Origin: Novosphingobium barchaimii LL02
Lineage (GTDB): Bacteria > Pseudomonadota > Alphaproteobacteria > Sphingomonadales > Sphingomonadaceae
DNA: 64,000 nucleotides
Direction of reading: 5' to 3'
Assembly (NCBI RefSeq): GCF_001046635.1
Contig: NZ_KQ130454.1
Location: 7,501-71,500 of the forward strand
This document shows positions 12,838 to 57,858 of the stretch, in pieces; position 1 is the stretch's first letter; every line of letters begins with the position of its first letter. The notes under the pieces were generated by a model. The model searched no databases. It worked only from the letters and a program-made list of their open reading frames with translations, and was not told where the DNA came from. The position numbers were made by a program, and so were the translations under genes.

Positions 12838-14682
12838 CTACAGCCCTGCCGCCACCGCGATCCAATAGGTCACGCCTGCCGATATATAGGCCAGCACGAA
12901 GAGGTAGACGAGCATGAACGTCGGCCACTTCCAGCCATTGGTCTCGCGCCGGGTCACCGCGATCGTCGACATGCACTGCGGGGCGAAGACGAACCACGCC
13001 AGGAACGCCAGCGCCATCGGCAGGGTCCAGCGGGCCTTGAGCTGGTCTCCCAGCTCCGCCGCCTGCTCGTCCTCGTTGTCACCGGCGTCGACCGCATAAG
13101 TCGTCGCCAGCGAGGAAACCGCGACTTCGCGCGCGGCCATCGCCGGGATCAGCGCCAGGGCCATGTCGCGATTGAAGCCGATCGGCTCCACCACCACGGC
13201 CAGGCCGCTGGCGATCTTGCCCGCGATGGAGGCATCGACCTGGCTTTCGCCCGGCCCGGCCTTCGGGAAGTTGAGCATCAGCCACAGCACCACGGTGACC
13301 ATGAAGATGATCGTGCCGGCGCGGCGCAGAAAAATCCAGGCACGCTGCCACAGGCCGATCGCCATGTCCTTGAGACGGGGCATCTGGTACTTGGGCATTT
13401 CCATGATGAAGCCGGAGGCCGCACCCTTGGTCATCGAACTGCGCATCAGCAGCGCCACCGCCATCGCCCCCAGCACACCCGCAAGGTACAGCACCAGAAG
13501 CACCAGGCCCTGCAAGCCCACCCCGGCGCCGACGTTGGTATTGGGAATGAACGCGGCGATGATCACCGCGTAGACCGGCAGGCGCGCGGAGCAGGTCATC
13601 ATCGGCGCAATCAGGATCGTCGTCAGCCGGTCCTTGGGATCGGTGATCGAACGAGTTGCCATGATGCCGGGAATGGCGCAGGCGAAGCTGGACAGCAGCG
13701 GAATGAAACTGCGCCCCGAAAGCCCCACGCCCGCCATCATCCGGTCCATCAGGAAGGCTGCGCGGGCCATGTAGCCAGAGGCTTCCATCGCCAGGATGAA
13801 GGCGAAGAGGATGACGATCTGCGGTAGGAACACGATCACCGAACCGACGCCGGAGATCACGCCGTCGGTCAGGAGGTCGCGCAGCAGGCTTTCCGGCAAA
13901 GTTGCCTTCACGGTGTCGTGCAGCCAGCCGACACTGGCCTCCAGCGCATCGGCGAAAGGCGTCGCCCAGGCGAACACCGCCTGGAACACCACGAACAGGA
14001 TGCCCAGCAGGATCAGCGGGCCCAGCCACGGGTTGAGCAGCAGGCGATCAAGGCTGGCATGCAGACGGTACTGCCGCGATTCGGACAGGATCGCCGCGCC
14101 CGCCATGGCGTGGGCGGCGACGCGGCGCTCTGTCGGGCCGATGTCGGTCAGGCCTGGGCCGGCGTGACGCTGCCCGGCATTGGCGATCGCCTCCCCCAGT
14201 TCAGCCAGACCGCGCCGGCGCACCGCCACGGTCGAGATCACGGGCACGCCCAGTTCCTCGGCCAGCACAGCGGCGTCGAGTACAAGCCCGTCCCGTTCGG
14301 CCAGGTCGACCATGTTGAGCGCGATGACGCTGGGTTTGCCCAGCGCCAGCACTTCCTGCGCAAAGACCAGGTGCTGTTCGAGATTCGAAGCGTCGAGCAC
14401 AATCACCAGCACGTCAGGCACCGCCTCGCCCTCGAAAGCGCCGCGAATGACCTTGGAGGTCACTTCCTCGTCCGGGCTGGTGGGGTCGAGGCCGTAGGCG
14501 CCGGGAAGGTCGGTCATCTCCACCGGTTCGCCGGTGGGCAGCACGAAGCGGCCCGACTTGCGCTCTACGGTGACACCCGGATAATTGGCGATCTTCTGGC
14601 GGGCCCCGGTCAGGGCATTGAACAACGCGCTTTTGCCGGCATTGGGGTTGCCGACCAGTGCGACTTTGCGTTGACGACTCAT
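12838..14682 (-). CDS. feoB: Ferrous iron transporter FeoB
   Basis: 614-residue FeoB. The N-terminal G domain has G1 GNPNAGKS at residues 11-18, the switch YPGVTVE, G3 DLPGAY and G4 NMVD. A helical spacer follows, then the membrane domain with paired gate motifs, including [17 protein letters not shown] and [14 protein letters not shown]. It imports Fe2+ across the inner membrane. Its ATG overlaps the feoA stop by four bases. No feoC-like gene follows; the next gene downstream is ssb. Confidence 0.96.
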
Positions 14683-14933: not shown

Positions 14934-14963
14934 GGCGACGCGCTGCCAGATAACGCCATCATT

Positions 14964-14978
14964 TGCAACTGGATCGCA
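14964..14978. promoter_or_regulatory. Weak iron-box-like palindrome upstream of feoA
   Basis: TGCAACTGGATCGCA has outer arms TGC...GCA like the better sites near tonB (31598) and 42003, but the inner bases pair poorly. Suggested only by position upstream of feoAB. Confidence 0.25.
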
Positions 14979-15096
14979 ATAGCTGAAACGTGAGTTTGGC
15001 GCATCGCAAGTTGCGGGCAACATGGCTTGCGGGGGCGCGTTCGCCGCCGGGTTCACACTTCGCCCGGCACGGCGAAGGCCAAACGTGCGGCCCGCA

Positions 15097-30754: not shown

Positions 30755-31573
30755 TCAGGCCGTGACCAACACGAACGGTATCGTCACGTAACCGCGCACC
30801 GACATTGCCGTGCCGCCAGCGATCGTCGGCGACCAGCGCCAGCGCTTTACCGCCTGCAGAGCTGCCCGGTCGAGCCGCTGACTACCACTGCTGCCCGCGA
30901 CCTGGATGTCCCTGACCGTCCCATCGGCACCCACCAGCACCAGCAGCTTCACAGTGCCCTGCTCGTGCGAGCGACGTGCCTCGGTCGGATAGGTCGGCGG
31001 CTTGGCGAAGATAACCTTGCTCGACAGATCGCCGCCCTCCATCGTCGTTGAAGGTGCCGGAGCCACGGCCGGGGCCGCGATGGCCTTTACACCTTCGCTG
31101 GTGACCGTAGGCGGCGCGGGCGGCGGCGGCGCTTCGACCATGACCTGTACCGGACCGGGCGCGGGAAGCTCGATCATAGGCCTAGGCGCGACGGTCTGGG
31201 TGATTGCCGCTTCGGGGGTTTCAAGCTTGGTCGGCTCTGGCGGGGGAGGCGGGGTCACGTCGAGATCGCGCACATCCACGGTCGTCAGGCGCGCGTGTTC
31301 CTTATGCGTGGCAGCCATGTTGAGCGTGGCCATCGCCGCCGCGATAGCCAGGATCGCCCCTGCCGATGCGAGGAACGCCACGGGCCGCGCCCGGCTGGAG
31401 GCCTGATAGACCGATCGTTCATAGGCGACGTGCGCGGTCGCATCCGTCATCGCCGCCGATTCGCCCGCAGGGTGCCAAAGCCTGCCCGCGAACTCGACGG
31501 CAGGCTCGCGGATCACATCCGAAACCGGAATACGGGCGAACTCATCAAGTCGGGGAACCGCGAGTGTCGCCAA
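30755..31573 (-). CDS. tonB: TonB energy transducer
   Basis: 272-residue TonB-family protein that transmits proton-motive force to outer-membrane receptors. A cytoplasmic N-terminal segment (YERSVYQASS) precedes the single membrane helix (VAFLASAGAILAIAAAM). A Pro-rich periplasmic linker follows (TPPPPPEPTKLETPEAA and later APPPPAPP), then the TonB C-terminal domain (YPTEARRSHEQGTVKLLVLV to AVKRWRWSP). I chose the TTG at 31573 because AGGAG lies seven bases upstream; an ATG at 31450 is an alternative without a ribosome site. It stands divergent from the PepSY gene across a Fur-like palindrome. Confidence 0.9.
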   Translation of the reverse strand: MATLAVPRLDEFARIPVSDVIREPAVEFAGRLWHPAGESAAMTDATAHVAYERSVYQASSRARPVAFLASAGAILAIAAAMATLNMAATHKEHARLTTVDVRDLDVTPPPPPEPTKLETPEAAITQTVAPRPMIELPAPGPVQVMVEAPPPPAPPTVTSEGVKAIAAPAVAPAPSTTMEGGDLSSKVIFAKPPTYPTEARRSHEQGTVKLLVLVGADGTVRDIQVAGSSGSQRLDRAALQAVKRWRWSPTIAGGTAMSVRGYVTIPFVLVTA

Positions 31574-31597
31574 TTGTAATCTCCTGCCAACCACTAT

Positions 31598-31612
31598 TGC
31601 GAGTGATTTGCA
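31598..31612. promoter_or_regulatory. Fur-like operator between tonB and the PepSY gene
   Basis: TGCGAGTGATTTGCA is a 15-base imperfect palindrome (5 of 7 base pairs match) with the same TGC/GCA-type arms as other iron boxes here. It lies 25 bases upstream of the tonB TTG and 111 bases upstream of the divergent gene, so it could repress both when iron is plentiful. Assignment to Fur rather than another iron regulator is inference. Confidence 0.5.
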
Positions 31613-31722
31613 TATACACTAAGCATTGGGTCGTCCAGAGGGAACACAGCTTTTCCGGCATGCCCGGCGCCGTAGTATTGCTGATTTTTCACCCCTCCCC
31701 AGGAATACAAGGATGCGACACG

Positions 31723-32463
31723 TTGGAAGCTGCCGATGCCCTTGAACAACGCGCCGACAATCCGCGCGTGACGGGTGTTCCGACCGGCGGCGGACCCGCG
31801 CAGGCCATGCCTGCTCCGCGCGGCTCGAAGAGCCCGAAACCCGGCAAGAAGAACAAGAAGGCCCGCGCCTTCTGGCTCAAGCAGTTGCACACATGGCACT
31901 GGGTGAGTGCGGCGATCTCTCTGGCAGCCATGTTCCTGTTTTCGGTTACCGGCATAACCTTGAACCATGCCGCCTCGATCGGTGCGGAGCCGGTGGTGAC
32001 CAAAAGCGAGGGAACGTTGCCCGCCGTCCTGCTGGCCAGGCTCCACCCCCCCGGCGACGCGACCGACCCGCTACCCGCCGAGGTAGCGAAAGCCGTGGCC
32101 GGCGCAGTGGCGCTGAACCCCGCGGGCCGCGCCGCCGACTGGTCCGCCGAAGACGAAGTCTACATCGCCATGCCCGGCCCCGGGCGCGACGCCTGGGTCA
32201 GTATCGACCGCAACACCGGCCAGGTCGCGGCCGAAGTGACTGATCGTGGCTGGATTTCCTATCTCAACGACCTCCACAAGGGCCGCAATACCGGCGATGC
32301 GTGGTTCTGGTTCATCGACCTGTTCGCGGCCGCCTGCGTACTGTTCACGTTGACCGGCCTGCTTCTGCTGCAACTTCACGCCAGGCATCGGCCCATGACC
32401 TGGCCGCTGGTGATCCTCAGCCTCATTGCGCCGCTACTGCTGGCGCTCCTGTTCATCCATTGA
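31723..32463 (+). CDS. PepSY-associated transmembrane protein (putative periplasmic reductase)
   Basis: About 246 residues. A basic N-terminal segment (KPGKKNKKARAFW) leads into a helix starting WLKQLHTWHWVSAAISL. A periplasmic PepSY-like domain sits in the middle (VSIDRNTGQVAAEVTDRGWISYLNDLHKG), and two C-terminal helices follow. Histidines H56, H59 and H82 at the helix ends and the one in DLHKGRNTGD fit bis-His haem binding seen in PepSY-TM proteins, which move electrons across the membrane. I chose the TTG at 31723 because AGGA precedes it; an ATG at 31807 is possible. First gene of a PepSY-DUF2271-DUF4198-apbE cluster. Confidence 0.82.
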   Translation: MEAADALEQRADNPRVTGVPTGGGPAQAMPAPRGSKSPKPGKKNKKARAFWLKQLHTWHWVSAAISLAAMFLFSVTGITLNHAASIGAEPVVTKSEGTLPAVLLARLHPPGDATDPLPAEVAKAVAGAVALNPAGRAADWSAEDEVYIAMPGPGRDAWVSIDRNTGQVAAEVTDRGWISYLNDLHKGRNTGDAWFWFIDLFAAACVLFTLTGLLLLQLHARHRPMTWPLVILSLIAPLLLALLFIH

Positions 32464-32477
32464 CGAGAAAGCCCGTG

Positions 32478-32978
32478 ATGACACGAACCCAGACTCTGCC
32501 AAAAATCCTGCCCGCGCTTCCCCTGCTGGTCGCCGGCACCATTGCCACCCCCGCTTTGGCCGCATCGGTGACGATCACGATAACCCAGATCAAGGTGGCC
32601 GAATACCACCGCCCCTACGTGGCCGGCTGGGTAGAGCCTGTGGCAGGCGGCAACGCGCGGACGATCTTCGTATGGTACGACGTCAAGAAGGCTGGCCGCG
32701 AGCCCGGCACAAAGTGGCTGGCAGACCTGCGCACCTGGTGGCGCAAGGGCGGCAGTTCGATGAAGATGCCTGCGGACGGCCTAACCGGCGCCACCCGCGC
32801 ACCCGGCAGCTATACCGTGGCGATCCCCGCCAATCTTCCCGCCGGGCAATACGTCCTGAAGGTAGAGGCGGCGCGTGAAACCGGCGGACGCGAACTGGTT
32901 TCGGTGCCGTTCTCGGTCCCCGCCAAGGGCGGCTCCGCATCGGGCAAGACCGAATTGGGCACCATCACCATCCGCTGA
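32478..32978 (+). CDS. Exported DUF2271 protein with ApbE flavinylation motif
   Basis: 166-residue DUF2271 protein with a clear signal peptide (LPALPLLVAGTIATPALAA, cleavage near residue 29). Residues 100-106 read DGLTGAT, matching the ApbE target motif in which the last Thr (T106) receives FMN. It should therefore be a covalent flavoprotein in the periplasm. The ATG follows 14 bases after the PepSY stop; a GTG lies directly before it. Together with the PepSY membrane protein and ApbE this suggests a short electron chain. The DUF2271 assignment is firm, the flavin inferred from the motif. Confidence 0.85.
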   Translation: MTRTQTLPKILPALPLLVAGTIATPALAASVTITITQIKVAEYHRPYVAGWVEPVAGGNARTIFVWYDVKKAGREPGTKWLADLRTWWRKGGSSMKMPADGLTGATRAPGSYTVAIPANLPAGQYVLKVEAARETGGRELVSVPFSVPAKGGSASGKTELGTITIR

Positions 32979-33051
32979 GCCGGCACCATCCGCTGAGCCG
33001 TGAGCACTCACTGACTTTCATGACCGTTTTCTTCCAAACAGGGGAATTGAA

Positions 33052-33972
33052 ATGCGTTTCCGCACCTTTCTGATCGCCGCCGCCGTATCCTCGGCGCTGG
33101 CAACGCCGGCCCTTGCGCACCGCATGTGGCTGCTGCCTTCGACCACCACGCTGGCCGGGACGAGCGAATATGTCACCGTCGATGCCGCCGTATCGAATGA
33201 CCTGTTCTACCCCGACCATATGGCGCTGGATCCCGCGCAAGTCTCGGTCTGGGCACCCGATGGCAGCGAAGGGAAAGTCGAGAACCCGTCCAAGGGCCGG
33301 TATCGTGGCACTTTCGACGTTGCGATCGACAAGCCGGGCACCTGGAAGATCGGCATGAACCGCTCCTCCATCGGCGGCACGTTCAAGGTCGGTGCGGAGC
33401 AATGGCGCGTAGGCGGACGCGGCCGTCCCGCGGGCCCTCCGGGCGCGCCCGGAGCCGGCGGTTCAGGTGCAGGTGGCCCCGGCGCAGGTCGTCCAGGTGG
33501 TCCGGGCGGCCCCGGTGGACAGCCGCCGCGTATGGTCGCCACAGTCGCCGATATCCCGGCCAATGCGACCGACATCAAGCTGAGCGAATCGCTGACCTCC
33601 TACGCCATCTACGTGTCGTCCGATGCGCCGACCAAAGGCGTGCTGACGCCGACCGGCAAGGGCCTGGAGTTCGATCCGATCACCCATCCCGACGCGCTCG
33701 TCTCGGACGAGGAAGCCAGCTTCCGCTTCCTCATCGACGGCAAACCGGCTGCTGGCGTGAAGGTCACCCTGATCCCGGGCGGCAAGAAATACCGCGAGGC
33801 CGAAGACGGTCAGGAACTGACCACTGGCGCCGACGGCGTGCTGCGCATCAAGTGGCCGGTCGCCGGCATGTACTGGATGAGCGCCAGCGCCGAGGACAAC
33901 AAGCCCAGCGACAAGCGCGCGCAGACCCGCCGCATGTCCTTCTCCAGCACGCTGGAAGTCGTGGCGCCCTGA
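33052..33972 (+). CDS. Exported DUF4198 protein with collagen-like Gly/Pro insert
   Basis: 306-residue DUF4198 protein, signal peptide MRFRTFLIAAAVSSALATPA with cleavage before HRMWLLPS, the usual mature start with its metal-binding-type His. Two beta-rich halves are separated by about 40 residues of Gly/Pro-rich low complexity (about 123-163, repeats such as GAPGAGGSGAGGPGAG). DUF4198 proteins are periplasmic and often lie next to TonB receptors; some are thought to bind metals or siderophores. It is the third gene of the flavin/iron cluster. The exact role is unknown. Confidence 0.85.
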   Translation: MRFRTFLIAAAVSSALATPALAHRMWLLPSTTTLAGTSEYVTVDAAVSNDLFYPDHMALDPAQVSVWAPDGSEGKVENPSKGRYRGTFDVAIDKPGTWKIGMNRSSIGGTFKVGAEQWRVGGRGRPAGPPGAPGAGGSGAGGPGAGRPGGPGGPGGQPPRMVATVADIPANATDIKLSESLTSYAIYVSSDAPTKGVLTPTGKGLEFDPITHPDALVSDEEASFRFLIDGKPAAGVKVTLIPGGKKYREAEDGQELTTGADGVLRIKWPVAGMYWMSASAEDNKPSDKRAQTRRMSFSSTLEVVAP

Positions 33973-33991
33973 TCGCCTGACATCCCAAGCC

Positions 33992-34978
33992 ATGCGTTTC
34001 GCCGTCCCGCTAGAGATCGACCCGACCTGCTTCGCCACCTGGCGGCAGGACAATCAGGTCGCCTCGATGGACGGCGAGACCATGGGGACTGCCTGGCACG
34101 TCAAGCTCTCCGCTCCGGCGGACTTCGACCGCAGGCCCCTGAAGGCCGCGATCGAAGCGAGGCTGGAAGCCATTCTTGCGCAGATGAGCCATTGGCGCGA
34201 GGACTCGGTGCTCGGCCGCTTCAACCGCGCACCCGGCGGAACGTGGTACGCCCTGCCCGCCGACTTCGCGCTGGTGATGGACGCTGCGCTGGATATCGCG
34301 GAACGCTCCGCCGGGGCCTTCGACCCGGCAATCGGCGCGCTCGTGGATATCTGGGGCCATGGTCCCGTCCAGACCACACGCCCGCCTGACCGGACCGAGA
34401 TCGAACAGGCGATGGCCGTCTCAGGCTTCACCCGCCTCGCACACGACCGCGATGCACGGCGCCTGCGCCAACCGGGCGGGCTGCACCTCGACCTTTCCGG
34501 CATCGCCAAGGGTTTCGCGGTGGATGCGCTGTCCCGGCTGCTGCGGGAAAGCTGCTTTCACCACGCCCTTGTCGAGATTGGCGGCGAACTGTTCGGGTCA
34601 GGCCTCCGGCCTGATGGCGACCCTTGGTGGGTAGACCTCGAAACGCCCGCAGATAGCGTCATTCCCATGCGTGTTGCCCTGCATCAGCTCGCGGCGGCGA
34701 CCTCAGGCGACTATGTGCGCGGGCGCCACACGATCGATCCACGCAGCGGCCTCCCAGTGGAACACGCCATGGCCGTCACGGTGATCCATCCCTCCGCCAT
34801 GCTGGCCGACGCATGGGCGACCGCCCTGAGCGTCCACACACAAGGCGTCATGCAGGCCCTCGCCACGCGCGAAAAGCTGGCCGTGCGCGCGCTGATCCGC
34901 CGCGGCGAATCGATCGCCGAATGGATCAGTCCCGCCCTGCAATCCATGCTGGAGCCTGAAGATCAACCGCGCGGCTAG
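33992..34978 (+). CDS. apbE: FAD:protein FMN transferase ApbE
   Basis: 328-residue ApbE that transfers FMN from FAD to a Thr or Ser in target proteins. Family motifs: MDGETMGTAWHVK near residue 26, SAGAFDPAIGALVDIWG, HLDLSGIAKGFAVDAL, VEIGGELFGSG and HTIDPRSGLPVEHAMAVTVI ending with the Asp-Ala region MLADAWATAL. It most likely modifies T106 of the DUF2271 protein two genes upstream. There is no signal peptide or lipobox: it starts MRFAVPLEIDPT just 19 bases after the DUF4198 stop. Many ApbE proteins are periplasmic lipoproteins, so this is unusual. Confidence 0.93.
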   Translation: MRFAVPLEIDPTCFATWRQDNQVASMDGETMGTAWHVKLSAPADFDRRPLKAAIEARLEAILAQMSHWREDSVLGRFNRAPGGTWYALPADFALVMDAALDIAERSAGAFDPAIGALVDIWGHGPVQTTRPPDRTEIEQAMAVSGFTRLAHDRDARRLRQPGGLHLDLSGIAKGFAVDALSRLLRESCFHHALVEIGGELFGSGLRPDGDPWWVDLETPADSVIPMRVALHQLAAATSGDYVRGRHTIDPRSGLPVEHAMAVTVIHPSAMLADAWATALSVHTQGVMQALATREKLAVRALIRRGESIAEWISPALQSMLEPEDQPRG

Positions 34979-35089: not shown

Positions 35090-35108
35090 GATAATGATAG
35101 TGACTCTC
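35090..35108. promoter_or_regulatory. Fur box upstream of the siderophore receptor
   Basis: GATAATGATAGTGACTCTC matches the classical 19-base Fur consensus at 15 positions, with a perfect left half. It lies 38 bases upstream of the receptor start and explains iron-dependent control of this gene. Confidence 0.65.
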
Positions 35109-35145
35109 AATATCAGGCCCTTCGTCAACATACGAAGGGGGAAAC

Positions 35146-37482
35146 ATGTCCATCAAGCCATCCAAGGCGGCTGCTCGCCGCACATTCCTTGCGCTGTCCT
35201 GCATCGCACCGGTTTTCGCGCCGGCAGCGCACGCGCAAACCGCAGACTCCGCCGAACGCAGCCTGGGCGGCGTCACCGTTTCGGACACCGCGATCGCCGA
35301 ACCCGGCCGCCAGCTTGAATCGCCCAAGCGCACCCGTACCGTGCGCGACACGCCCCAGACGATCACCGTCCTCACCAGGGAAGTGATCGAGCAGCAGAAC
35401 CTGCTGACCCTGCGCGACGTGCTTTCCACCGTACCGGGCATTACCTTCGGCGCGGGCGAAGGCGGCACCGGGCCCGGCGACAACATCACCTTCCGCGGCT
35501 ACAGCGCCGCCAACGACATCACCATCGACGGCGTGCGCGACAGCGCCCAGATCACCCGCACCGATCCGTTCAACCTCGATCAGGTCGAAGTCACCAATGG
35601 CGCCAACTCGGTGATCTCGGGTGCCGGTTCGGTCGGCGGCAACATCAACATCGTCACCAAGCGCCCCAAGGCCGACGACGCCTATGTCGCGACCGCGGGC
35701 GTGGGCACCGACGACTACTACCGCGCCACCGTCGATCTGAACAAGCGCGTGAACGATCTCGTCGCCTTCCGCCTCAACGCGATGTGGCACCGCAACGACC
35801 TGCCGGGCCGCGACGTCGAGAACTACAAGCGCTGGGGCGTCGCCCCGTCGCTGACGATCGGTATCGACAGCCCGACCCGCCTGACGCTGCAGTATTCGCA
35901 CCAGGAGGACGACAACGTGCCGCAGTACGGCGTGCCATACTACAGCGGCACCGTTCCGGGCGTCCACCGCAGCGACTATTTCGGCTATCGCAACGTCGAC
36001 AAGCAGCGCATCAACGTTGACCAGATGACGGCGATCTTCGAGCACGAGTTCAGCGATACCGCATCGATCCGCAATCTCGCCCGCTGGCAGGATTCGCGCC
36101 AGCTCACGGTGGTCTCGCCGCCGCAGGGCACGTATTGCCTCGCCAGCGGCGTCACGCCGACCGGCGGCAGCTGCGGCACCGTGCCCGCCGGCTACTACCA
36201 GCCGTCTGGCCCGCGCGGGACCACGCGTGACATCCGCAACCAGCTGATGTTCGACCAGCTCGACATCAAGGCGGTGTTCAACACCGGTGCGATCGAACAC
36301 ACGATCGACTTGGGCGGCGCCGCGACCTGGGAAAAGTACGACCTGTACAACGGCAACTCGCTGCGCAACGCCAACGGCACCGCCGGCTTCACCACCTTGC
36401 CGCTGATCAACATCGACAATCCCAACGATGTCATCGCCGGCCCCGGCGCCTTCACCTACGGCAGCAACCTCTACACCGGTGCAATCAACTTCATCCGTAC
36501 CGGCCACACCGTCGGCGAGCAGACCAACGTCGCCGGTTATCTGTTCGACACCATGAAGCTGGGCAAGTTCGAGCTGAACGCAGGCGCCCGCGTCGAGCGC
36601 AACACCGGCACCTCGCGCACCGATGCGATCGCAGCCACCACCACCGCCCTCGTGACGCAGGGCCAGGTCACGCCCGGCACTACCGCCCGTAATGCCGATA
36701 CGCTGTTCTCCTACCGCGTCGGCCTCGTCTACAAGCCGGTCGAGGCGGTCAGCCTCTACGCCGCCTACGGCAACTCGCAGACGCCCTCGAAGAACTCGGT
36801 CAACGGTGCCTGCACCATCTCGGCTCCGGGCGTCGTCGGTGCGACCTGCAACATCGACCCCGAAGAAGCGCGCAACTACGAGATCGGCGCCAAGGCGGAA
36901 CTGTTCGACGGCGGCCTGCTGCTGACGGCGTCGGCCTTCCGCAACGAGCGCAACAAGTACGCTGTCGCTTCGGCAAACCCGCTCGTCGAGCCCGAGCAGC
37001 AGCTTGACGGCAAATCGCGCGTGGACGGCATCGCCCTTGGCGCAAGTGGCACGATCACCCCGAACTGGACGATCACCGCCAACTACACCTACCTCAAGGG
37101 CAAGCTGATCCGCTCGCTCGACAAGGATTCGACTGCGATCGACTACGCTGCCGGGTCGCAGCTGACCCAGACGCCCAAGCACTCGGGCAGCCTGTTCACT
37201 ACCTATCGCCTGCCGTTCGGCCTGACGATCGGCTACGGCGCGACTTACCAAGGCAAGTTCGCGTTCAACACGCCTTCGGCGACGGTGCCAGGCGTGCTCT
37301 ACTCGCACGACTACATCGTCCACAACGGCCTGCTGTCCTACGAGTTTTCGCCCAATCTTTCGGCGCAGCTCAACGTCAAGAACATCGGCAACAAGCTGTA
37401 CTACCAGCGTATCCGCAACAACGGCTGGGCCACGCCGGGCGATGCCCGCTCGGCCACGCTGACGCTCATCGCGAAGATGTAA
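35146..37482 (+). CDS. TonB-dependent catecholate-siderophore receptor (Fiu-like)
   Basis: 778-residue outer-membrane receptor. A signal peptide ends at AHAQ (near residue 30). The plug domain follows (VRDTPQTITVLTREVIEQQN, then ITFRGYSAANDITIDGVRD and SVISGAGSVGGNINIVTKRPK), then a beta-barrel with the typical NYEIGAKAELFDGGLLLTAS segment. The pattern is that of Fiu/PiuA receptors for monomeric catechol siderophores. It is preceded by a Fur box and followed by piuC, the usual partner. The C-terminus ends TLTLIAKM, without the terminal Phe usual for outer-membrane proteins. Confidence 0.93.
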   Translation: MSIKPSKAAARRTFLALSCIAPVFAPAAHAQTADSAERSLGGVTVSDTAIAEPGRQLESPKRTRTVRDTPQTITVLTREVIEQQNLLTLRDVLSTVPGITFGAGEGGTGPGDNITFRGYSAANDITIDGVRDSAQITRTDPFNLDQVEVTNGANSVISGAGSVGGNINIVTKRPKADDAYVATAGVGTDDYYRATVDLNKRVNDLVAFRLNAMWHRNDLPGRDVENYKRWGVAPSLTIGIDSPTRLTLQYSHQEDDNVPQYGVPYYSGTVPGVHRSDYFGYRNVDKQRINVDQMTAIFEHEFSDTASIRNLARWQDSRQLTVVSPPQGTYCLASGVTPTGGSCGTVPAGYYQPSGPRGTTRDIRNQLMFDQLDIKAVFNTGAIEHTIDLGGAATWEKYDLYNGNSLRNANGTAGFTTLPLINIDNPNDVIAGPGAFTYGSNLYTGAINFIRTGHTVGEQTNVAGYLFDTMKLGKFELNAGARVERNTGTSRTDAIAATTTALVTQGQVTPGTTARNADTLFSYRVGLVYKPVEAVSLYAAYGNSQTPSKNSVNGACTISAPGVVGATCNIDPEEARNYEIGAKAELFDGGLLLTASAFRNERNKYAVASANPLVEPEQQLDGKSRVDGIALGASGTITPNWTITANYTYLKGKLIRSLDKDSTAIDYAAGSQLTQTPKHSGSLFTTYRLPFGLTIGYGATYQGKFAFNTPSATVPGVLYSHDYIVHNGLLSYEFSPNLSAQLNVKNIGNKLYYQRIRNNGWATPGDARSATLTLIAKM

Positions 37483-37586: not shown

Positions 37587-38267
37587 ATGGTCATCGAAAT
37601 TCCCGAGCTTTTCGACGCATCCGAAGCGCGCGAAATCCGCAATGCCCTCGAAAACGCGGACTGGTCCGACGGACGCGCCACCGCCGGTCACCGCGCCGCC
37701 CGCGTCAAGGAGAACGAGCAGCTCGCGCTCGACCATCCGCTGGCCCGGCAACTGGCGGACCGTGTCCTTGCCCGGCTTGCCCAGACCCCGCTGTTCATCG
37801 CCGCCGCCCTGCCCGCGCGCGTGCTGCAGCCGCGCTTCTCGCGCTATGACGGGCGCGGCCATTACGGCAACCATGTCGACAACGCGATCTTCCCCATTCC
37901 CGGCACCGGCGACCACTTGCGTTCCGACGTGTCGAGCACCCTGTTTCTCAGCGACCCCGAGGATTACGAAGGCGGCGAACTTGTCATCGAGGACATGTTC
38001 GGCACCCACACCGCCAAGCTGCCCGCCGGGCACCTGATCGTCTATCCCGGCTCCAGCCTGCACAGGGTCATGCCGGTAACGCGGGGCACGCGCCTCGTCT
38101 CGTTCTTCTGGACGCAGAGCTTCGTCGCCTCGCCCGAGAAGCGGCGGCTGATGTTCGAACTGGACGGCGCGATCCAGTCTGTCGCTACCGACCATCCCGA
38201 ACATGCCTCGGTCGACACTCTCACCCAGGTCTATCACAACCTGCTGCGCCAGTGGTCCGCCACGTGA
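37587..38267 (+). CDS. piuC: PiuC, Fe(II)/2-oxoglutarate-dependent PKHD-type hydroxylase
   Basis: 226-residue PKHD-type dioxygenase. Iron ligands are H96 and D98 (NHVDNAIF) and H159 (SSLHRVMPVTRG); R169 should bind 2-oxoglutarate (TRLVSFFW). PiuC proteins are Fur-regulated partners of Fiu/PiuA receptors and may modify siderophores or receptor-related substrates; the reaction is not known. The ATG at 37587 fits the family N-terminus (MVIEIPELF). Its stop overlaps the start of the hydroxy-acid oxidase (GTGA). Confidence 0.93.
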   Translation: MVIEIPELFDASEAREIRNALENADWSDGRATAGHRAARVKENEQLALDHPLARQLADRVLARLAQTPLFIAAALPARVLQPRFSRYDGRGHYGNHVDNAIFPIPGTGDHLRSDVSSTLFLSDPEDYEGGELVIEDMFGTHTAKLPAGHLIVYPGSSLHRVMPVTRGTRLVSFFWTQSFVASPEKRRLMFELDGAIQSVATDHPEHASVDTLTQVYHNLLRQWSAT

Positions 38268-39385
38268 GCGAAGGCCCGCTGCCGCCGCTGACCGCGATCC
38301 CCGCCAGCCTGCGCAGCCTGGCCGACTACGAAGCCCGCGCCCCGCAGCACATGACAACCCAAGCCTGGCACCACATCCGGGAAGGCGCCGGCCGCGAGGT
38401 CACCTTGCGCGAAAACCGCGCCGCCTTCGACCGCATCGGCCTGCTGCCCCGCGCCATGGCCGAGCTGGACGGCGACACCCGCATCGACCTTTTCGGCCGC
38501 TCCCACGCCTCGCCGATCCTGCTCGCGCCGCTGGCCTACATGTGCCTTGCCCACCCGGAGGGCGAACTGGCCGCCGTGCGCGCCGCAGCCGCGCTGGATA
38601 CCGGGATGGTGGTCAGCACCCTCGCCAGCGTATCGCTGGAGGACATCGCCGCCGCCAGCCGATCGCTTTCGCAGGAACTTGGCAGGCCGCCCGCTCCGCT
38701 GTGGTTCCAGCTCTACCTCCAGCCGGAGCGCGAACACAGCCTGCAGCTGCTGCGCCGTGCCGAAGACGCCGGTTACGAAGCGATCGTGCTGACGATCGAT
38801 GCCGGGCTGAAACCTGCCGGCATCGCCCTGCCGCCGGGGGTAGACGCCGTGAACCTTGCCGGAATGCCGCGCCCGCGTCAGACCTCGGTCCCCGGTGGCC
38901 GTATCCTTCTGGGCACCCCGCTGACCGACGCCGCGCCCAAGTGGGCCGATCTTGCCTGGCTGCGCTCAGCCACGACCTTGCCGATCCTCGTCAAAGGTCT
39001 GGTGCTGGGTGACGACGCCCGCCGAACCGTGGACGAAGGCGCGGACGGCCTGATCGTTTCAAACCACGGCGGCCGCGTGCTGGACGGCCTGCCCAGCGCG
39101 CTGGACCTGCTTCCGGCAGTGGCCGAAACGGTGCGGGACCAGGTGCCGCTGCTGCTCGACGGCGGCGTTCGGCAGGGCACCGACGTGGTCAAGGCGCTGG
39201 CGCTGGGCGCCCGCGCCGTACTGGTGGGCCGCCCGCAGATGCACGCGCTGGCGGTGGCGGGAATGCCCGGCCTAGCCCATGTGATCCACCTGCTTCGAAC
39301 CGAGCTGGAGGCGGCGATGGCGCAATTGGGCTGTCCCCGCGTTGACCTGCTCGGCCCCGAGCGCCTGGTGGCCCTGGGCGCCTAG
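38264..39385 (+). CDS. FMN-dependent alpha-hydroxy-acid oxidase/dehydrogenase
   Basis: 373-residue TIM-barrel flavoenzyme of the lactate/glycolate oxidase family. Motifs in order: PILLAPLAYMCLAHPEGE near the N-terminus, FQLYLQ, the Lys in LPILVKGLV, catalytic H268 with its Arg partner in SNHGGRVLDG, and the FMN phosphate loop LLDGGVRQGTDVVKALALGA. It oxidises an alpha-hydroxy acid to the keto acid; substrate not decidable. The GTG start overlaps the piuC stop, so both are coupled, which suggests a role in iron metabolism. Its stop overlaps the convergent gene by four bases. Confidence 0.9.
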   Translation: MSEGPLPPLTAIPASLRSLADYEARAPQHMTTQAWHHIREGAGREVTLRENRAAFDRIGLLPRAMAELDGDTRIDLFGRSHASPILLAPLAYMCLAHPEGELAAVRAAAALDTGMVVSTLASVSLEDIAAASRSLSQELGRPPAPLWFQLYLQPEREHSLQLLRRAEDAGYEAIVLTIDAGLKPAGIALPPGVDAVNLAGMPRPRQTSVPGGRILLGTPLTDAAPKWADLAWLRSATTLPILVKGLVLGDDARRTVDEGADGLIVSNHGGRVLDGLPSALDLLPAVAETVRDQVPLLLDGGVRQGTDVVKALALGARAVLVGRPQMHALAVAGMPGLAHVIHLLRTELEAAMAQLGCPRVDLLGPERLVALGA

Positions 39386-41874
39386 CCGACCGGCAGCTTC
39401 ACCGCCGTGCCCGGCGCATCCCTGAGTCGCACATAGAGCGCCCCATCCGCGGGCCTGGGCACCTTCAGCGCGGAGCCGGTATAGCCCGGCGGCACGGTCG
39501 CGGCTTTGGCGAACCCGGCATCCGCGCCCACAGCATCTACAAGGAACAGGGAACGCGCGGTGATCGTGCATTCCTCACCTTCGCATACTACATCCTCGAT
39601 GCCCGGCAGGCGCACCAGCGTCGCCAATGGCTGCCAGTCGCCCGCCGTATCGCCGCCGCGCAGCAGCCGGAAGCGCAAGGGGCCGAAGGTTCCTGCGGGA
39701 ATATCCGCGCCCTTGAGGCGCGCCACCAGCACTTCGGGGCTTTCCAGCGTGAGGCCCTTGCCCGCACTCAGCCGCACGACGCTTTCGCCCTCGGCCGCCG
39801 CGATCTCCACCGTGTCTAGCGGCCCCAGCTTCATGCCGGCCCCGGCCTTTACCGAGAACACCAGTTCTCCGGTATCCGGCAGCAGATCTCCGGCCGCGCC
39901 GAGATCCAGCGTGCGCGCGCCCTTGGCGACGGCTGCCGGATTGACGGTGCGGTTCAGCAGCGAGACTTGCGGGCGCGGCGGGCCGACGCGGACCTGCATG
40001 GGCAGGCTGCGCCCATCCTCCAGCTTGACGATGGCCTTGGCCGCGTCGCCCTGTTCGGGTGCATGGCCGGTGCCCTGTGCGGTCAGCCTCAGCCGGTCGA
40101 CCGCGCCTTCGCGGGTCAGCCCATCGGGACGAAACTCGACATCGCCCACCATCAGCGTGCGCACCTGATCGAGCCGCTGCCCGCTCAGGCTGGCATGGGT
40201 GTCCCCCGCATGAAGTTCCAGCGCATCCAGCCGGCTTGCCTCGGCGCGGGCCCTGAGAGTGACGGCCACCGGGTCCTTCGCGCCCTGATACCGCACCTCG
40301 ATACGCATATCGCCCGGACGCGCACCTTCCAGCGGCACCGTCACGGCAATGCGATTGTCCTGCACGGTCCGCCACTTGAGCGGGGTGGCCGCACCGTTCC
40401 CCTGCCGCAGCGTAACTTCCTCGACGCAGGACGGAGCGCTGCCTTCAAGCTGCACGTCGTTGTCACGGCCGACGATCATGCCGTCGGCGGCGTCCTGCCC
40501 CTGCCCCGCCACTTTCCAGGCGCTGCCATCGGGCCGCTGGAGCACGAAGTCCGGCCCCTCGAACCCCGCGAAACCCCATAGGCCGTGGAGGTGCGCCCGC
40601 ACGGTGCCGGTAAAGGCCGCGGGCAGGCTTTCGGCGGCAAGCCTATAACCGCCCTTTTCCGCGCGCGGCATCGCCGCAACTTCCAGCACCTGCCCCGCTG
40701 CCGAAGTAAGGCGAACCTGCATGGCGTGGGCGAACTGAGTGGAAAACACCAGCGGCGCGCCTTCCACCGGCAGCACGGCGCCGGCCTGCGCGGCGCAGAC
40801 CGGACCCTTGGCGGTGCTGCGCAGCTGCGGAGGAATGTCCGCCTCGATCGCGGGCAGCGCGGTGACCATGACCGACTTGGGCTTCTGAAACGATGGCGCG
40901 GCATTGAGCAGCAGCGACATCGTATCGTCGTTACGCACGCTCAGCGTCGGCAGATAGTTGAAGGATGGGTTGCTGAACGCGCCGAAGATGCGCGCGATAT
41001 CGCGCGCGACCCCGATGTACGCGCTGTAATACCCCGCCCCCCCTTCGCGCGTAGCGCTTAGCTGCAGGGCAAGGTCGGTCGGCGTGCCGGTAAGCGTATC
41101 GGCGATCGAACTGGAATGAACGTCACTCAGCACCAGCGATTCGCGGTTCTGCACCAGACATGAAGCCTGCTGTTCGATCACCTTGGACAGACAATCGGCC
41201 TGCAGCTTGACCGACAAGCTGCTGGCCAGCGTCGGCGCGACGGTGCGCAGGTATTCCGGCCCGTTATCGTCCTGGGCACGGATCGCGGCCATGAAGGCGA
41301 TCAGACGCGAATGGTCCAGGCTGGCCTGGTTGAGGTCCTGACTGGCGCGCACGAATTCACCGGGCTTGCCGCGCACCGCATCGACCAGCGCGCCTTCCGC
41401 GCCGCCGGTTTCCGGCACCAGCAGGAGTACCAGCTGGCGCGCGCCCTTGGGCACGGTCAGGGTGAGCGCCTTGTCCTTTTCCTTGGACTTCCAGGTACGG
41501 GCAATGTCGATCCAGTCCTTGGGCGGCGGATTGGTGGCGCCGCGCAGGAAGGCGGAAACCAGCACGAAATTGGCGCCCTGATCTTCGGAGAATGCGCCCT
41601 CGACGACCACTTTGTCTCCCGCGGCAAGGCTGGGGACCTTGGCGATCGGCAGGGTCTTTTCCCCGCGCGTGACCTCGATCCGCAAGTCCGGCCCGGTCAG
41701 TTCGAACGGCGCCGGATCGGCGGCGGCAGTCACAGGGATCGCGCACGTTGCAGCGGCCAACAACGATGGCAGCAGGGGCCGAAAGGCCGGGTGGTTCGTC
41801 AAATCGTTCGGCAAGGAGCGAAAATTCCCGTCGTTGGTCCTGACACTGCGCCCCCGCAGCCCCCTTAGCCGCAT
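39382..41874 (-). CDS. Large exported protein of unknown function
   Basis: About 830 residues from the ATG at 41874; I do not recognise a family. The N-terminal region ends in a signal-like segment (FRPLLPSLLAAATCAIPVTAAA). The mature part looks beta-rich with many short repeats of charged and hydrophobic residues, and has few cysteines, which sit in local pairs (ADCLSK with ASCLVQ, and VCEGEECTI). It may be built of Ig-like or similar domains. It converges on the piuC operon and lies beside an iron-box-containing region. The start is uncertain: no ribosome site, and the frame stays open upstream to 42147. Confidence 0.75.
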   Translation of the reverse strand: MRLRGLRGRSVRTNDGNFRSLPNDLTNHPAFRPLLPSLLAAATCAIPVTAAADPAPFELTGPDLRIEVTRGEKTLPIAKVPSLAAGDKVVVEGAFSEDQGANFVLVSAFLRGATNPPPKDWIDIARTWKSKEKDKALTLTVPKGARQLVLLLVPETGGAEGALVDAVRGKPGEFVRASQDLNQASLDHSRLIAFMAAIRAQDDNGPEYLRTVAPTLASSLSVKLQADCLSKVIEQQASCLVQNRESLVLSDVHSSSIADTLTGTPTDLALQLSATREGGAGYYSAYIGVARDIARIFGAFSNPSFNYLPTLSVRNDDTMSLLLNAAPSFQKPKSVMVTALPAIEADIPPQLRSTAKGPVCAAQAGAVLPVEGAPLVFSTQFAHAMQVRLTSAAGQVLEVAAMPRAEKGGYRLAAESLPAAFTGTVRAHLHGLWGFAGFEGPDFVLQRPDGSAWKVAGQGQDAADGMIVGRDNDVQLEGSAPSCVEEVTLRQGNGAATPLKWRTVQDNRIAVTVPLEGARPGDMRIEVRYQGAKDPVAVTLRARAEASRLDALELHAGDTHASLSGQRLDQVRTLMVGDVEFRPDGLTREGAVDRLRLTAQGTGHAPEQGDAAKAIVKLEDGRSLPMQVRVGPPRPQVSLLNRTVNPAAVAKGARTLDLGAAGDLLPDTGELVFSVKAGAGMKLGPLDTVEIAAAEGESVVRLSAGKGLTLESPEVLVARLKGADIPAGTFGPLRFRLLRGGDTAGDWQPLATLVRLPGIEDVVCEGEECTITARSLFLVDAVGADAGFAKAATVPPGYTGSALKVPRPADGALYVRLRDAPGTAVKLPVG

Positions 41875-42002
41875 CCACCAGCTGCGTACATGCCCATGGT
41901 AATCCGGCGGCAGGCCCGGATGTTCCCTGAAATGCCGGCGCGCGCCGCCCCTGATGCCCGCCCCTGAAACGAACTGGCAGGAATTGTTACAATTCTCCAT
42001 AT

Positions 42003-42017
42003 TGAGAATCATTCGCA
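42003..42017. promoter_or_regulatory. Fur-like palindrome in the divergent intergenic region
   Basis: TGAGAATCATTCGCA is a 15-base palindrome with 6 of 7 pairs matching around a central C. It lies 119 bases upstream of the small gene starting at 42136 and 129 bases upstream of the divergent large exported protein, so it could control either or both. The rest of this 261-base gap shows nothing else clear. Confidence 0.55.
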
Positions 42018-42135
42018 AATATTGTCTAAGAAGATCAAGGAACAGGGGACGTGGACAAAGGAGATCAGGCGCCATGGCGCAGCGACAGTCCCGATCATCG
42101 ATTGCCGCCCCTGGCGCGGCGCCAGGCAGGACATC

Positions 42136-42552
42136 ATGATGATGCACTCCGCCATCACCCCTGCCGCCACCGCAACCCGCAGGCAGGTTTCACCTTCCGC
42201 TCTCGTGACGTCCGTCGCCCGCCGCTGGCGCGCTGCGCGCGATCATGGACTGCCGGCACAGGCGCGGCTTTATGCCCTGCTTTCGCCGCGTCACTGGGAG
42301 ATGATGACCCCTGCCTTCGACAGCCTCATGGCCCTGTGCGAAAGTGCGCTAAGCCGCCCTTTCGCCACCGGGACCGGCCGGAACCTGACTCGGGACGAGG
42401 CGATGCTGATCGGACTGCTCGACGGCTCGGTGCCGCAGGACGATTGCATCGATTGCCCGGCGGGAACGGCCCGCGCACTCGACAGCGCGATACGCTCGAC
42501 CAGGATCATGATGGTGCTGATGATGAGCGGGCCGGTCGGGACCCGGCTCTGA
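42136..42552 (+). CDS. Small protein of unknown function, probably iron-regulated
   Basis: 138-residue soluble protein that I do not recognise. The central part (RLYALLSPRHWEMMTPAFDS, then NLTRDEAMLIGLLDGS) is helical and looks conserved rather than random. A Cys pair, DDCIDCPAGTARAL, stands at about 100 and could bind metal. The C-terminus is Met-rich. I chose the ATG at 42136 because AGGA precedes it by six bases. A Fur-like palindrome lies upstream. It converges on the glycosyltransferase gene. Confidence 0.65.
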   Translation: MMMHSAITPAATATRRQVSPSALVTSVARRWRAARDHGLPAQARLYALLSPRHWEMMTPAFDSLMALCESALSRPFATGTGRNLTRDEAMLIGLLDGSVPQDDCIDCPAGTARALDSAIRSTRIMMVLMMSGPVGTRL

Positions 42553-55632: not shown

Positions 55633-57771
55633 CTAGAAGTCCAGCTTGGCGGTCAGGCGGATATCGCGGCCGGACAGCGGGGCGTAGTCCTTGAGGAACG
55701 AGGCCGCGCGGCGGGCCACCACGTCGAAGATGTTATTCGCCGAAAGCGCGAAGCTGATCGGCCGCTCAGTGCCCCAGGGACGCACGTTCACCTCGGCGTT
55801 GACCATGGTGTAACCGTCGGTCGGGGTCTCGAAATCGGATATCCGCTTCTGGTTGGTCACATGCTCCACTTCGCCGCGCAGGTCGAACTTGGGCGCCTGG
55901 AAGCTGAGGCCGCCCAGCACGCGCAGCGGCGGGATGCGCGGCGCCGGGCCGACGCTGACGATGTTGGCGTGGACGTAGTCGCCCAGCGCATCGGCGACGA
56001 TCTTCGAATCCCCGAAGCGGGCCAGGGTCAGCGTGCCCTGCGCCTCGAACCCGTAATAGCGCGCATCGGCCTGGTACGACTGGTAGACCGGCAGGCCATC
56101 CTCCAGCGCGCCCGTCTGGCCTTCGTAGATGAAGTTCGAGAACCAGGTGTGATAGGCCGATGCCTCGAAGGTATAGTTCGTGCCCTTGCCGCGCAGGATC
56201 GCCTCGACGCCCCAGGACTTTTCGAGCTTGAAGTCGGGATTGCCGATTTCGAACGCCTCGGTTCCGGCATGGGGCCCATTGGCGAAAAGCTCCTCGGCGG
56301 AAGGCGCGCGTTCGGTGCGCGACAGGTTGAGGCCGACGCGCCAGTCATCCGACAGTGCATAGGATGCGCCCAGCGAGCCCGAGACCGCATCGAAAGTGCG
56401 GCTGCCGTCGAAGAACTGCGACTGGTCGGCAAGCGGGTTGGCGCTGAGGTTGGTATGCTCGTACCGCGCGCCGGCTTCTAACTTGAGCGCGCCGTAATCA
56501 AGCTGCTGAAGGGTGAAAAGGCCGACCTGGCTGGTCGAATTCTTCGGCAGGAAAGCCTCGTCGCCCACCACGTTGAAGTCGCGCGTGAACAGCTGGCCGC
56601 CGGTCACGCCGCGCCAGGCGCCCTGCTTGGCCTGGGTGAATTCCAGGCGGCCTTCCATGCCCTTGTTGTAGAACGCGGTGCCGACCGAGCCGTCTTCCTC
56701 CAGTTCGAAGTGCGAATAATCGGCATAGCCGAGCCGCATCGAGACCTTGTCGAGGAAGCCCGAGTTCACGTCGATCTCGGCGCGCGCATCGACGCGGTCC
56801 TGCTTGAGCTTGAGGCGCGGTGCTTCCTGCTCCTCGCCCGCCTGCGTCGCATAGCGCACCGGCACGCCGTAGAGGCTATCGTAATGGCCGTAGGAGACGC
56901 CGAAGTTGCCGCTGTCGCCGATGTAGGCGATGCCGGCCCCCGCGGTCCAGGTCTTGGCGGCGGTGTTGGGCAGCTTGCCCTTGATGCCTGCATTGGCGGC
57001 GAAGTCGATCGGCTCCGCGTCGGCGGGGTCGGCGGGCTGAAGGCTGGACGCCAGCGCCTCGCCCCGCAGCGCCGGTGTCAGCGCATGGCCGCCGATGCGC
57101 ACGTCATCGCTCTTGAGGTAGCTGCCGTCCACATGGGCGACCCACTGCGAGGACAGGGGCACATCCACCGCACCCGAGAAGGAGCGTTCGTCCGCGGCCG
57201 AACCATAGCTTGCCAGCGCGCCGACGTGGACCGCCTCGGTGGGCACCTTGGTGGGGATGCGCTTGTCGATCACGTTGACGACACCGCCGATGGCGGACGA
57301 ACCGTAGAGCAGCGACTGCGGCCCGCGCAGCACCTCGATCCGCTCTGCCAGCAGCGGGTTGACGACGACGGCGTGGTCCACCGACGTGTTCGACACATCG
57401 ATCGAACCGATGCCGTCGGTCAGGATGCGTACGCGCTCACCCTGCAGGCCGCGCAGCACCGGGCGCGAGGCGCTGGGGCCGAACGAGGTGGCCGAAACGC
57501 CGGGCTGGTGCTGCAGGGTCTCCCCGATGGAGGGGCGAAGCGACTGCGTCAGTTCGCTGCCCTGCACAACCGCCACGCTGGAAAGCATGTCCTGCCGATT
57601 GGTGGGCAGGACCCCGGTGACGACGATCTCGCTGCCCTGCCCGGCGTGGTAGGGATCGTCCTTCTTGGAAGTTGCCGCCGCATCCGCACCTGTGTCACTC
57701 GTTTCAGCGTAAGCAGCGGCAGGGAGCAGGACAGCGGCAAGCGCGCAGCCGGAAAGCAATCGAAACCTCAT
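55633..57771 (-). CDS. TonB-dependent receptor, ZnuD-like (putative zinc uptake)
   Basis: 712-residue outer-membrane receptor. Signal peptide LLSGCALAAVLLPAAAYAE; plug with EIVVTGVLPTN, SVAVVQGSEL, RPVLRGLQGERVRILTDGIG and EVLRGPQSLLYGSSAIGGVVNVID; barrel with the family C-terminus ARRAASFLKDYAPLSGRDIRL, close to the ZnuD-type signature, and a final Phe. ZnuD receptors import zinc and are Zur-repressed; a Zur-like motif lies 88 bases upstream of the start. The ATG at 57771 begins the signal peptide. Confidence 0.87.
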   Translation of the reverse strand: MRFRLLSGCALAAVLLPAAAYAETSDTGADAAATSKKDDPYHAGQGSEIVVTGVLPTNRQDMLSSVAVVQGSELTQSLRPSIGETLQHQPGVSATSFGPSASRPVLRGLQGERVRILTDGIGSIDVSNTSVDHAVVVNPLLAERIEVLRGPQSLLYGSSAIGGVVNVIDKRIPTKVPTEAVHVGALASYGSAADERSFSGAVDVPLSSQWVAHVDGSYLKSDDVRIGGHALTPALRGEALASSLQPADPADAEPIDFAANAGIKGKLPNTAAKTWTAGAGIAYIGDSGNFGVSYGHYDSLYGVPVRYATQAGEEQEAPRLKLKQDRVDARAEIDVNSGFLDKVSMRLGYADYSHFELEEDGSVGTAFYNKGMEGRLEFTQAKQGAWRGVTGGQLFTRDFNVVGDEAFLPKNSTSQVGLFTLQQLDYGALKLEAGARYEHTNLSANPLADQSQFFDGSRTFDAVSGSLGASYALSDDWRVGLNLSRTERAPSAEELFANGPHAGTEAFEIGNPDFKLEKSWGVEAILRGKGTNYTFEASAYHTWFSNFIYEGQTGALEDGLPVYQSYQADARYYGFEAQGTLTLARFGDSKIVADALGDYVHANIVSVGPAPRIPPLRVLGGLSFQAPKFDLRGEVEHVTNQKRISDFETPTDGYTMVNAEVNVRPWGTERPISFALSANNIFDVVARRAASFLKDYAPLSGRDIRLTAKLDF

Positions 57772-57858
57772 GGGGAACCTCGAACGTAATGGAATAACAT
57801 ATCTGAGTAGGCGCGAACGGGGGAGGACTCGCGCTTTCGTCGCGCTTACACCCTGCAA

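Follow-up and report, generated by a model that had tools for sequence, protein, structure and literature searches.

The window analysed here is a stretch of 64,000 nucleotides from Novosphingobium barchaimii LL02 (contig NZ_KQ130454.1, positions 7,501 to 71,500), and it contains a cluster of genes for a PepSY-type membrane protein, a DUF2271 protein, a DUF4198 protein and ApbE, the FAD:protein FMN transferase (FAD, flavin adenine dinucleotide; FMN, flavin mononucleotide). A preliminary description of the window had taken these four same-strand genes for a reductive iron-uptake module that faces tonB across an iron-box palindrome and precedes a Fiu-type receptor. Such a module is already known in outline; the point that we consider worth testing is that this ApbE has no recognisable leader.

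Matches to Pfam and NCBIfam models give an order of eight genes: tonB, PepSY, DUF2271, DUF4198, ApbE, receptor, dioxygenase and alpha-hydroxy-acid dehydrogenase (Table 1). The four core genes do lie on the plus strand in the order described, at about 31.8-34.98 kb, with tonB on the opposite strand across the palindrome. The DUF2271 protein has both a Sec-type signal and an ApbE target motif of the form [ST]GA[ST]. The receptor exceeds the cut-off of the general siderophore receptor model, and Fiu is its best-scoring named model, though below that model's own cut-off. The module does not end with ApbE at 34978, as had been supposed: the block continues with the receptor, a PiuC/YbiX-type dioxygenase and the dehydrogenase, and the dioxygenase is a companion that lay outside the earlier picture. 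The start of the PepSY gene is uncertain, at 31660 or, from comparison with relatives, at 31807.

Table 1. Genes and predicted Fur-like boxes of the cluster, with feoB, in window coordinates
Feature	Position	Strand	Support and remarks
tonB	30755..31450	-	PF03544, 81.7 bits; longest open reading frame to 31594, ATG at 31450 likelier (judged by eye)
Fur-like box between tonB and the PepSY gene	31594..31616		28.2 bits
PepSY-like three-helix membrane protein, putative b-type cytochrome reductase	31807..32463	+	PF16357 (PepSY_TM_like_2), 251.7 bits; PF03929, 42.2 bits
DUF2271 protein, Sec-type signal, ApbE target motif TGAT	32478..32978	+	PF10029, 132.4 bits; motif in DGLTGATR
DUF4198 periplasmic protein, predicted mature N-terminal histidine (putative metal site)	33052..33972	+	PF10670, 161.7 bits
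ApbE FAD:protein FMN transferase without signal peptide	33992..34978	+	PF02424, 225.4 bits
Fur-like box ahead of the receptor gene	35091..35113		28.5 bits
TonB-dependent receptor, Fiu/PiuA/CciT type	35146..37482	+	TIGR01783, 245.4 bits (cut-off 223.5); Fiu model, 387.8 bits (below cut-off 686)
PiuC/YbiX/CciO-type Fe(II)/2-oxoglutarate dioxygenase	37587..38267	+	NF003975, 322.5 bits (cut-off 180); PKHD_C, 62.3 bits; longest open reading frame from 37539
FMN-dependent alpha-hydroxy-acid dehydrogenase	38252..39385	+	PF01070, 362.3 bits; 16-base overlap with the dioxygenase gene
feoB	12838-14682	-	FeoB_N, Gate and FeoB_C matches

Among the best 80 of 592 confirmed loci, the closest is that of Novosphingobium sp. 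AP12 (L009), with 92% identity in DUF2271 and the same eight genes. We also drew an even sample of 249 genomes from the family (completeness unstated), of which 73 have DUF2271 over the cut-off, at 74 places, and 176 do not; a phylum sample took in 60 of the 61 places over the cut-off outside the family, one in G506 being left out. These samples contain related genomes, and at least five loci belong to the best-80 set as well as to the family set, so that pooled counts are slightly inflated. The four-gene core is kept, order included, in 68 of the 74 family DUF2271 regions, and the neighbourhood is thus conserved in relatives as the preliminary description had expected.

ApbE and its probable exported target

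The usual description of ApbE is of a secreted enzyme that acts outside the cytosol on secreted targets; the histidine of its HTIDPR motif is catalytic, and a short target peptide can be flavinylated. The window ApbE aligns to a solved ApbE (4xgw) over 21-323 with E 7e-44. The preliminary description implied a periplasmic enzyme, and for this we find no leader: the protein starts 27 residues before the conserved GETMGT motif, with acidic residues and no hydrophobic run, and its frame offers no earlier start. The same short N-terminus occurs in Sphingomonadaceae, Cupriavidus, Andreprevotia and plasmid loci, and another short one in Lysobacter.

Leaders were scored by a home-made hydrophobicity test, not SignalP, that calls for a 10-residue uncharged stretch of mean Kyte-Doolittle value at least 1.9 after any possible start. 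It was passed by 11 of 173 ApbEs (26 of these frames, without ATG, GTG or TTG in the tested range, being counted as not passing), 189 of 196 DUF4198 proteins, 141 of 181 DUF2271 proteins and 3 of 87 PiuC dioxygenases; proteins whose anchor was not found (3 ApbE, 10 PiuC, 22 DUF2271 and 9 DUF4198) had been dropped. With start codons ignored the counts were 10/173, 189/196, 142/181 and 12/87, respectively. Of the 11 ApbEs that passed, one (L209) has a true lipobox and seven others a VL[IV]P stretch broken by its proline. By this rule the window protein and nearly all of its relatives lack the leader of an extracytosolic ApbE.

The rule can detect leaders, since 8 of 20 other ApbEs pass it: five with an RRR leader (L253, L255, L256, L257, L267), two with a lipobox (L271, L272) and a doubtful one (L268). 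Nor is the absence of a leader confined to DUF2271 clusters, because the other 12 also fail, including L258, L259, L261, L262 and L265, which are of another type and stand beside FMN_bind genes. The RRR-leader ApbEs, which are Tat-like (Tat, twin-arginine translocation), belong to the family sample but lie outside the DUF2271 clusters, and four of the five come from genomes with FMN_bind and without DUF2271. Fusions of ApbE with DUF2271 (L235, L236, L238, L239) start with a leader-like stretch, in contrast to the separate ApbE, which is leaderless. DUF2271 loci of a second kind (L240-L246, L249-L251) are without the PepSY core and mostly have a larger flavoreductase-like gene nearby; their ApbE, whose N-terminus ahead of the motif is short, is likewise leaderless.

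ApbE was found in 86 of the 249 family genomes, comprising all 73 with DUF2271 but only 13 of the 176 without it. FMN_bind was found in 13 of the 249, and only two of these (G223 and G235) have DUF2271, so 71 of the 73 DUF2271 genomes are without it; it is present in 11 of the 13 ApbE genomes that lack DUF2271. Likewise, 34 of the 37 genomes of the selected loci are without FMN_bind, and 27 have one ApbE match. A separate exported ApbE elsewhere in the genome was considered and is ruled out by the finding that 69 of the 73 DUF2271 family genomes carry one ApbE gene (a single match in 67, and in G184 and G190 two fragments each, counted as one gene); the others, G094, G223, G235 and G259, have more. 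In G108, G174 and G205 the ApbE lies away from DUF2271, and the N-termini of these three were outside the leader test.

On the target side, the acceptor Thr106 is invariant in an alignment of eight rows, and a script found the [ST]xx[ST] motif in 188 of 203 DUF2271 relatives, as SGAT or TGAT in 150. A sequence search of solved structures with DUF2271 gave nothing useful. The earlier statement that biochemical proof is lacking is outdated for flavinylation: a passage of the eLife 2021 survey of Meheust et al. (PMC8238504) reports that in E. coli the ApbE of Amantichitinum ursilacus flavinylated the motif threonine of the DUF2271 protein from the same species. The signals of the DUF2271 proteins look like Sec signals. 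The Tat motif RRx[FLVMIA][LVIM] was found in none of 181 DUF2271 signal regions (42 have some RR), which rules out Tat export of a folded, flavinylated protein.

Because its ApbE is leaderless, the simplest reading is that DUF2271 probably receives its FMN while still in the cytosol, either ahead of Sec export or in the course of it. A leaderless bacterial ApbE is named in part of a 2025 review (PMC12052999) for a cytosolic fumarate reductase of Klebsiella; a limited literature search found no published statement of a leaderless ApbE paired with an exported target.

Predicted iron control and published relatives

The palindrome that the preliminary description called an iron box is well borne out in silico as a Fur-like box upstream of the PepSY gene. 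The dyad TGCGA-N5-TCGCA, found de novo, is present in 34 of 186 regions upstream of PepSY genes versus 10 of 930 random stretches. From it we grew a matrix (TATTGCGAATnATTCGCAATA), refined on the upstream regions of relatives with the window excluded, although close relatives such as the AP12 locus are in the training set. The matrix scores at least 12 bits in 156 of 185 PepSY upstreams, which are its own refinement set so that this share arises partly by construction, versus 7 of 185 random stretches. Twenty simulated 64-kb sequences gave a highest score of 18.1 bits; this, set against the 28.2 bits of the box at 31594-31616, and the enrichment of the dyad rule out a chance palindrome.

The earlier statement that surveys of flavinylation noted similar neighbourhoods was sound. 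The eLife 2021 survey, in the passages on PepSY-like clusters (PMC8238504), counts 3220 such clusters, 2833 with DUF2271 and 1500 with DUF4198, and argues that they serve iron reduction and assimilation; the PF16357 protein, ApbE, DUF2271 with [ST]GA[ST] and a secreted DUF4198 are shared with the window, and that work had already proposed that such clusters have an iron role, are controlled by Fur and neighbour TonB genes. The differences are three. The survey has ApbE as extracytosolic, whereas the window ApbE has no leader (a cluster call in that work needs a signal on only one target gene); unlike in those clusters, neither an NAD-binding domain nor a flavoreductase gene adjoins the one in the window; and the survey's passages on PepSY-like clusters contain no link to a dioxygenase.

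The operon CC3059-63 of Caulobacter crescentus (CCNA_03155-03159) shares PepSY, DUF2271, DUF4198 and ApbE with the window, but it has a fifth gene, for a sulphite-reductase-like flavoprotein, that the window lacks, and cciT-cciO lie at a distant locus (CCNA_00027/28), whereas in the window receptor and dioxygenase directly follow the module. According to part of one paper (PMC3751524), iron limitation and a fur mutation both induce this operon strongly (folds of 12-44 and 16-51, columns unassigned), and a lacZ test and a Fur gel shift make it a direct Fur target; part of another (PMC11870441) reports that its transposon mutants are less fit in ethylenediaminetetraacetic acid (EDTA), as are cciT and cciO mutants. 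Since these clusters and this operon have been published, the module of the preliminary description was already known. Fur binding, induction at low iron and the fitness effect in EDTA are thus results of others, obtained with homologues of the window genes.

PepSY, DUF4198, the receptor pair and the electron donor

By its Pfam matches the membrane protein is of the PepSY type (PF03929 or PF16357) that marks flavinylation clusters. H21, H147, H181 and H208 (predicted segment) are invariant in 48 aligned rows, and H44 is conserved in at least 90%. The structure model (predicted local distance difference test, pLDDT, 87.5) has three long helices (5-44, 153-182 and 186-207) and an alpha/beta domain; these helices would place H21 and H181 at the inner face and H44, H147 and H208 at the outer face, fitting two haem sites. 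From the conserved histidines, then, the protein may bind haem at two bis-histidine sites. FoxB, the Pseudomonas siderophore reductase (7abw), is alike in being a PepSY-type membrane protein with a PF03929 match and histidines conserved near both helix ends; it differs in its length of 360 residues, whereas the window protein is one three-helix unit of about 218 residues that would work with a separate flavoprotein. Foldseek with the PepSY model gave no match at E 0.001, FoxB included, and FoxB aligned weakly in VIA-align (rank 32, poor superposition). A sequence search of solved structures returned a designed protein (E 1.6e-6) and a weak RnfG stretch, both of which we take as chance. A Pseudoalteromonas plasmid has a natural PepSY-DUF2271 fusion (L007:5473-6540) adjoining a receptor and DUF4198, with no ApbE adjacent; this fits direct electron transfer from PepSY to DUF2271 and an outside C-terminus of PepSY.

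The secreted DUF4198 protein has the fold of its family and a predicted mature N-terminal histidine. The pattern ..A|H, with cleavage judged from sequence, is found in 198 of 205 DUF4198 relatives, and H34 and H190 (mature numbering) are each present in 92% of those 198, H190 falling below 90% in a separate 39-row set. With its model (pLDDT 88.9), the best Foldseek matches were Zcp (9mhm_B, E 5.5e-14) and a nickel-bound DUF4198 (9gcb_A, E 8.5e-9); the matched Zcp structures carry Cu, Zn or Co. A single-sequence search of solved structures found nothing useful, whereas a profile search did find the Zcp entries, which there bore the name of a different enzyme. A DUF4198 protein with a mature N-terminal histidine binds Ni, according to part of PMC12537917. 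The Ideonella DUF4198 protein (9gcb), which also has this histidine, and Zcp (9mhi-9mhn) share the fold at only 13-16% identity to the window protein, in which there is a Gly/Pro-rich loop (33430-33523, mature residues about 105-135) of low model confidence that most relatives lack. By analogy, the window protein may bind a metal.

Receptor and dioxygenase resemble the Fiu-YbiX, PiuA-PiuC and CciT-CciO pairs, in which a Fiu-like siderophore receptor is followed by a PKHD-type Fe(II) dioxygenase, with an iron box that is predicted here; unlike those pairs, they are linked to the flavin module, and an alpha-hydroxy-acid dehydrogenase comes after them. PKHD_C was found in 69 of 73 DUF2271 genomes versus 59 of the 176 genomes without DUF2271 (Fisher odds ratio 34, p 1e-20, uncorrected for kinship); at 40 of the 74 DUF2271 places it lies within 12 kb, versus about 0.5 expected. 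A strong CciT-like receptor and PiuC occur together in 37 of the 74 family regions, and PiuC is near 15 of 41 PepSY loci of the phylum sample. In part of a J. Bacteriol. 2025 paper (PMC12004943), PepSY is given as a neighbour of cciT/cciO in fewer than 25% of genomes. On a FastTree tree of 200 PepSY proteins all four arrangements occur, with 41 state changes versus a shuffled mean of 90, and the 97 loci with PiuC require at least 17 changes of arrangement. Survival of the linkage through these rearrangements points to one pathway for the flavin module and the receptor/PiuC pair. PiuC is near in all 19 loci that hold the alpha-hydroxy-acid dehydrogenase (three samples, two genomes counted twice); the dehydrogenase may act with PiuC on the ligand, and it is conceivable that the imported ligand is hydroxylated and then oxidised.

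A membrane flavoreductase, related to that of Acidovorax and equated by us on annotation with Caulobacter CCNA_03159, is the usual electron donor. Its relatives are near 41 of 60 phylum loci (at least nine of these matches being weak and in loci without the PepSY core) versus 8 of 74 family loci, and none was found in the 23-kb stretch of the window that was searched. Of 28 Sphingomonadaceae cluster genomes, 16 had no genome-wide relative of another such flavoreductase at E 0.001, and four (G001, G004, G007, G014) have strong flavoreductase relatives at other loci. The sphingomonad form is thus mostly without the usual donor. As for the electron path from the inner membrane to FMN that the preliminary description drew, PepSY, DUF2271 and ApbE are in place, but its first step is a gap, because the usual donor gene is missing at the window cluster. 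Since no membrane flavoreductase is encoded there, the donor may be quinol. The alpha-hydroxy-acid dehydrogenase was considered as a replacement donor and ruled out: it co-occurs with the flavoreductase (L164, L165, L196, L207) and follows PiuC.

Interpretation and alternatives

Our favoured explanation, which we hold to be reasonably probable, is that the cluster is the sphingomonad form of a Fur-controlled reductive iron-uptake module. The role in reductive iron uptake proposed by the preliminary description is well supported, mostly by published work as far as the cited sections go (PMC8238504, PMC3751524, PMC11870441), and the box, co-occurrence and linkage reported here agree with it. The Fiu/CciT-type receptor, driven by TonB, would bring a ferric chelate into the periplasm. 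Electrons, probably from quinol, would pass through the two putative haem sites of the PepSY protein to FMN on periplasmic DUF2271, which would reduce Fe(III), and Fe(II) would enter through FeoB; DUF4198 may be a periplasmic metal-binding helper that uses its N-terminal histidine. Leaderless ApbE would load DUF2271 in the cytosol, where PiuC, and here also the alpha-hydroxy-acid dehydrogenase, may act on the imported ligand. The feoAB genes of the window (the short open reading frame ahead of feoB looks like feoA) are no special partner of the cluster, since FeoB_C is found in 227 of the 249 family genomes; they merely offer an entry route for Fe(II).

A possible objection is that PepSY is instead an inner-membrane permease for ferric siderophores, with DUF2271 and DUF4198 as binding proteins rather than electron carriers. 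An Alteromonas transcriptome paper (PMC7190382, in part) predicts siderophore permeases in PepSY proteins of 4-8 helices beside receptors, and our PepSY model, with three long helices, has no clear match to FoxB. Three helices are few for a permease, however, five histidines are conserved, and both ApbE and the target motif are conserved with the PepSY gene, ApbE tracking DUF2271 across genomes; we consider a permease very unlikely. Only slightly less improbable is that the module serves another metal, copper or nickel, with iron control being only a part. Among DUF4198 relatives, those with solved structures bind Ni, Zn, Cu or Co, and CciT and CciO are important to Caulobacter in resisting copper (part of PMC12004943), but the Fur-like dyad is enriched upstream of PepSY, the Caulobacter operon is Fur-bound and induced at low iron, and EDTA stress is ascribed to lower intracellular iron (part of PMC11870441).

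The site of flavin attachment is a separate matter. The leaderless ApbE might leave the cytosol along a route not yet recognised, or have a true start that was missed, and load DUF2271 in the periplasm. A section of the review cited above (PMC12052999) has cytosolic Salmonella ApbE unable to serve its periplasmic role, working only when exported; the ApbE-DUF2271 fusions open with a leader-like stretch, L209 has a lipoprotein leader at the same gene position, and the 26 ApbE frames without a usual start codon leave the N-terminus unsure. On the other hand, at many loci only about 27 residues of open frame precede GETMGT, with acidic residues among them and no hydrophobic run, ignoring start codons does not bring out more such runs, and the rule does find leaders, Tat-like ones and lipoboxes among them, on other ApbEs. 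We regard periplasmic loading as unlikely, though still to be reckoned with.

With cytosolic loading preferred for the window, we would give about even chances to a broader proposal: that in most Pseudomonadota DUF2271-type systems a leaderless ApbE flavinylates its target in the cytosol and the chain then passes through Sec, and that receptor, reductase and cytosolic dioxygenase make up a single route, put together again and again, for one ferric ligand. If true, an extracytosolic flavin would be fitted without exporting FAD or ApbE, the reverse of the accepted topology. Since in a large group the only ApbE is leaderless and the only visible target is exported, a sharp and cheap test is available; it asks whether the flavin is added before export and whether Sec can pass a chain bearing FMN. 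The repeated joining of the flavin module to CciT/PiuC likewise provides a definite context in which to ask how PiuC-type dioxygenases act in iron uptake.

Two further Fur-like boxes were found in the window. The weaker (20.8 bits, 14960-14982) lies directly before the short open reading frame ahead of feoB. The other, the strongest of all (32.9 bits, 41999-42021), precedes an open reading frame on the minus strand (39382-42147, 921 amino acids, true start probably later) for a large predicted exported protein with no Pfam match, which may be an undescribed iron-regulated protein. A second TonB-dependent receptor gene lies at 55633-57858 on the minus strand, with no strong Fur-like box nearby.

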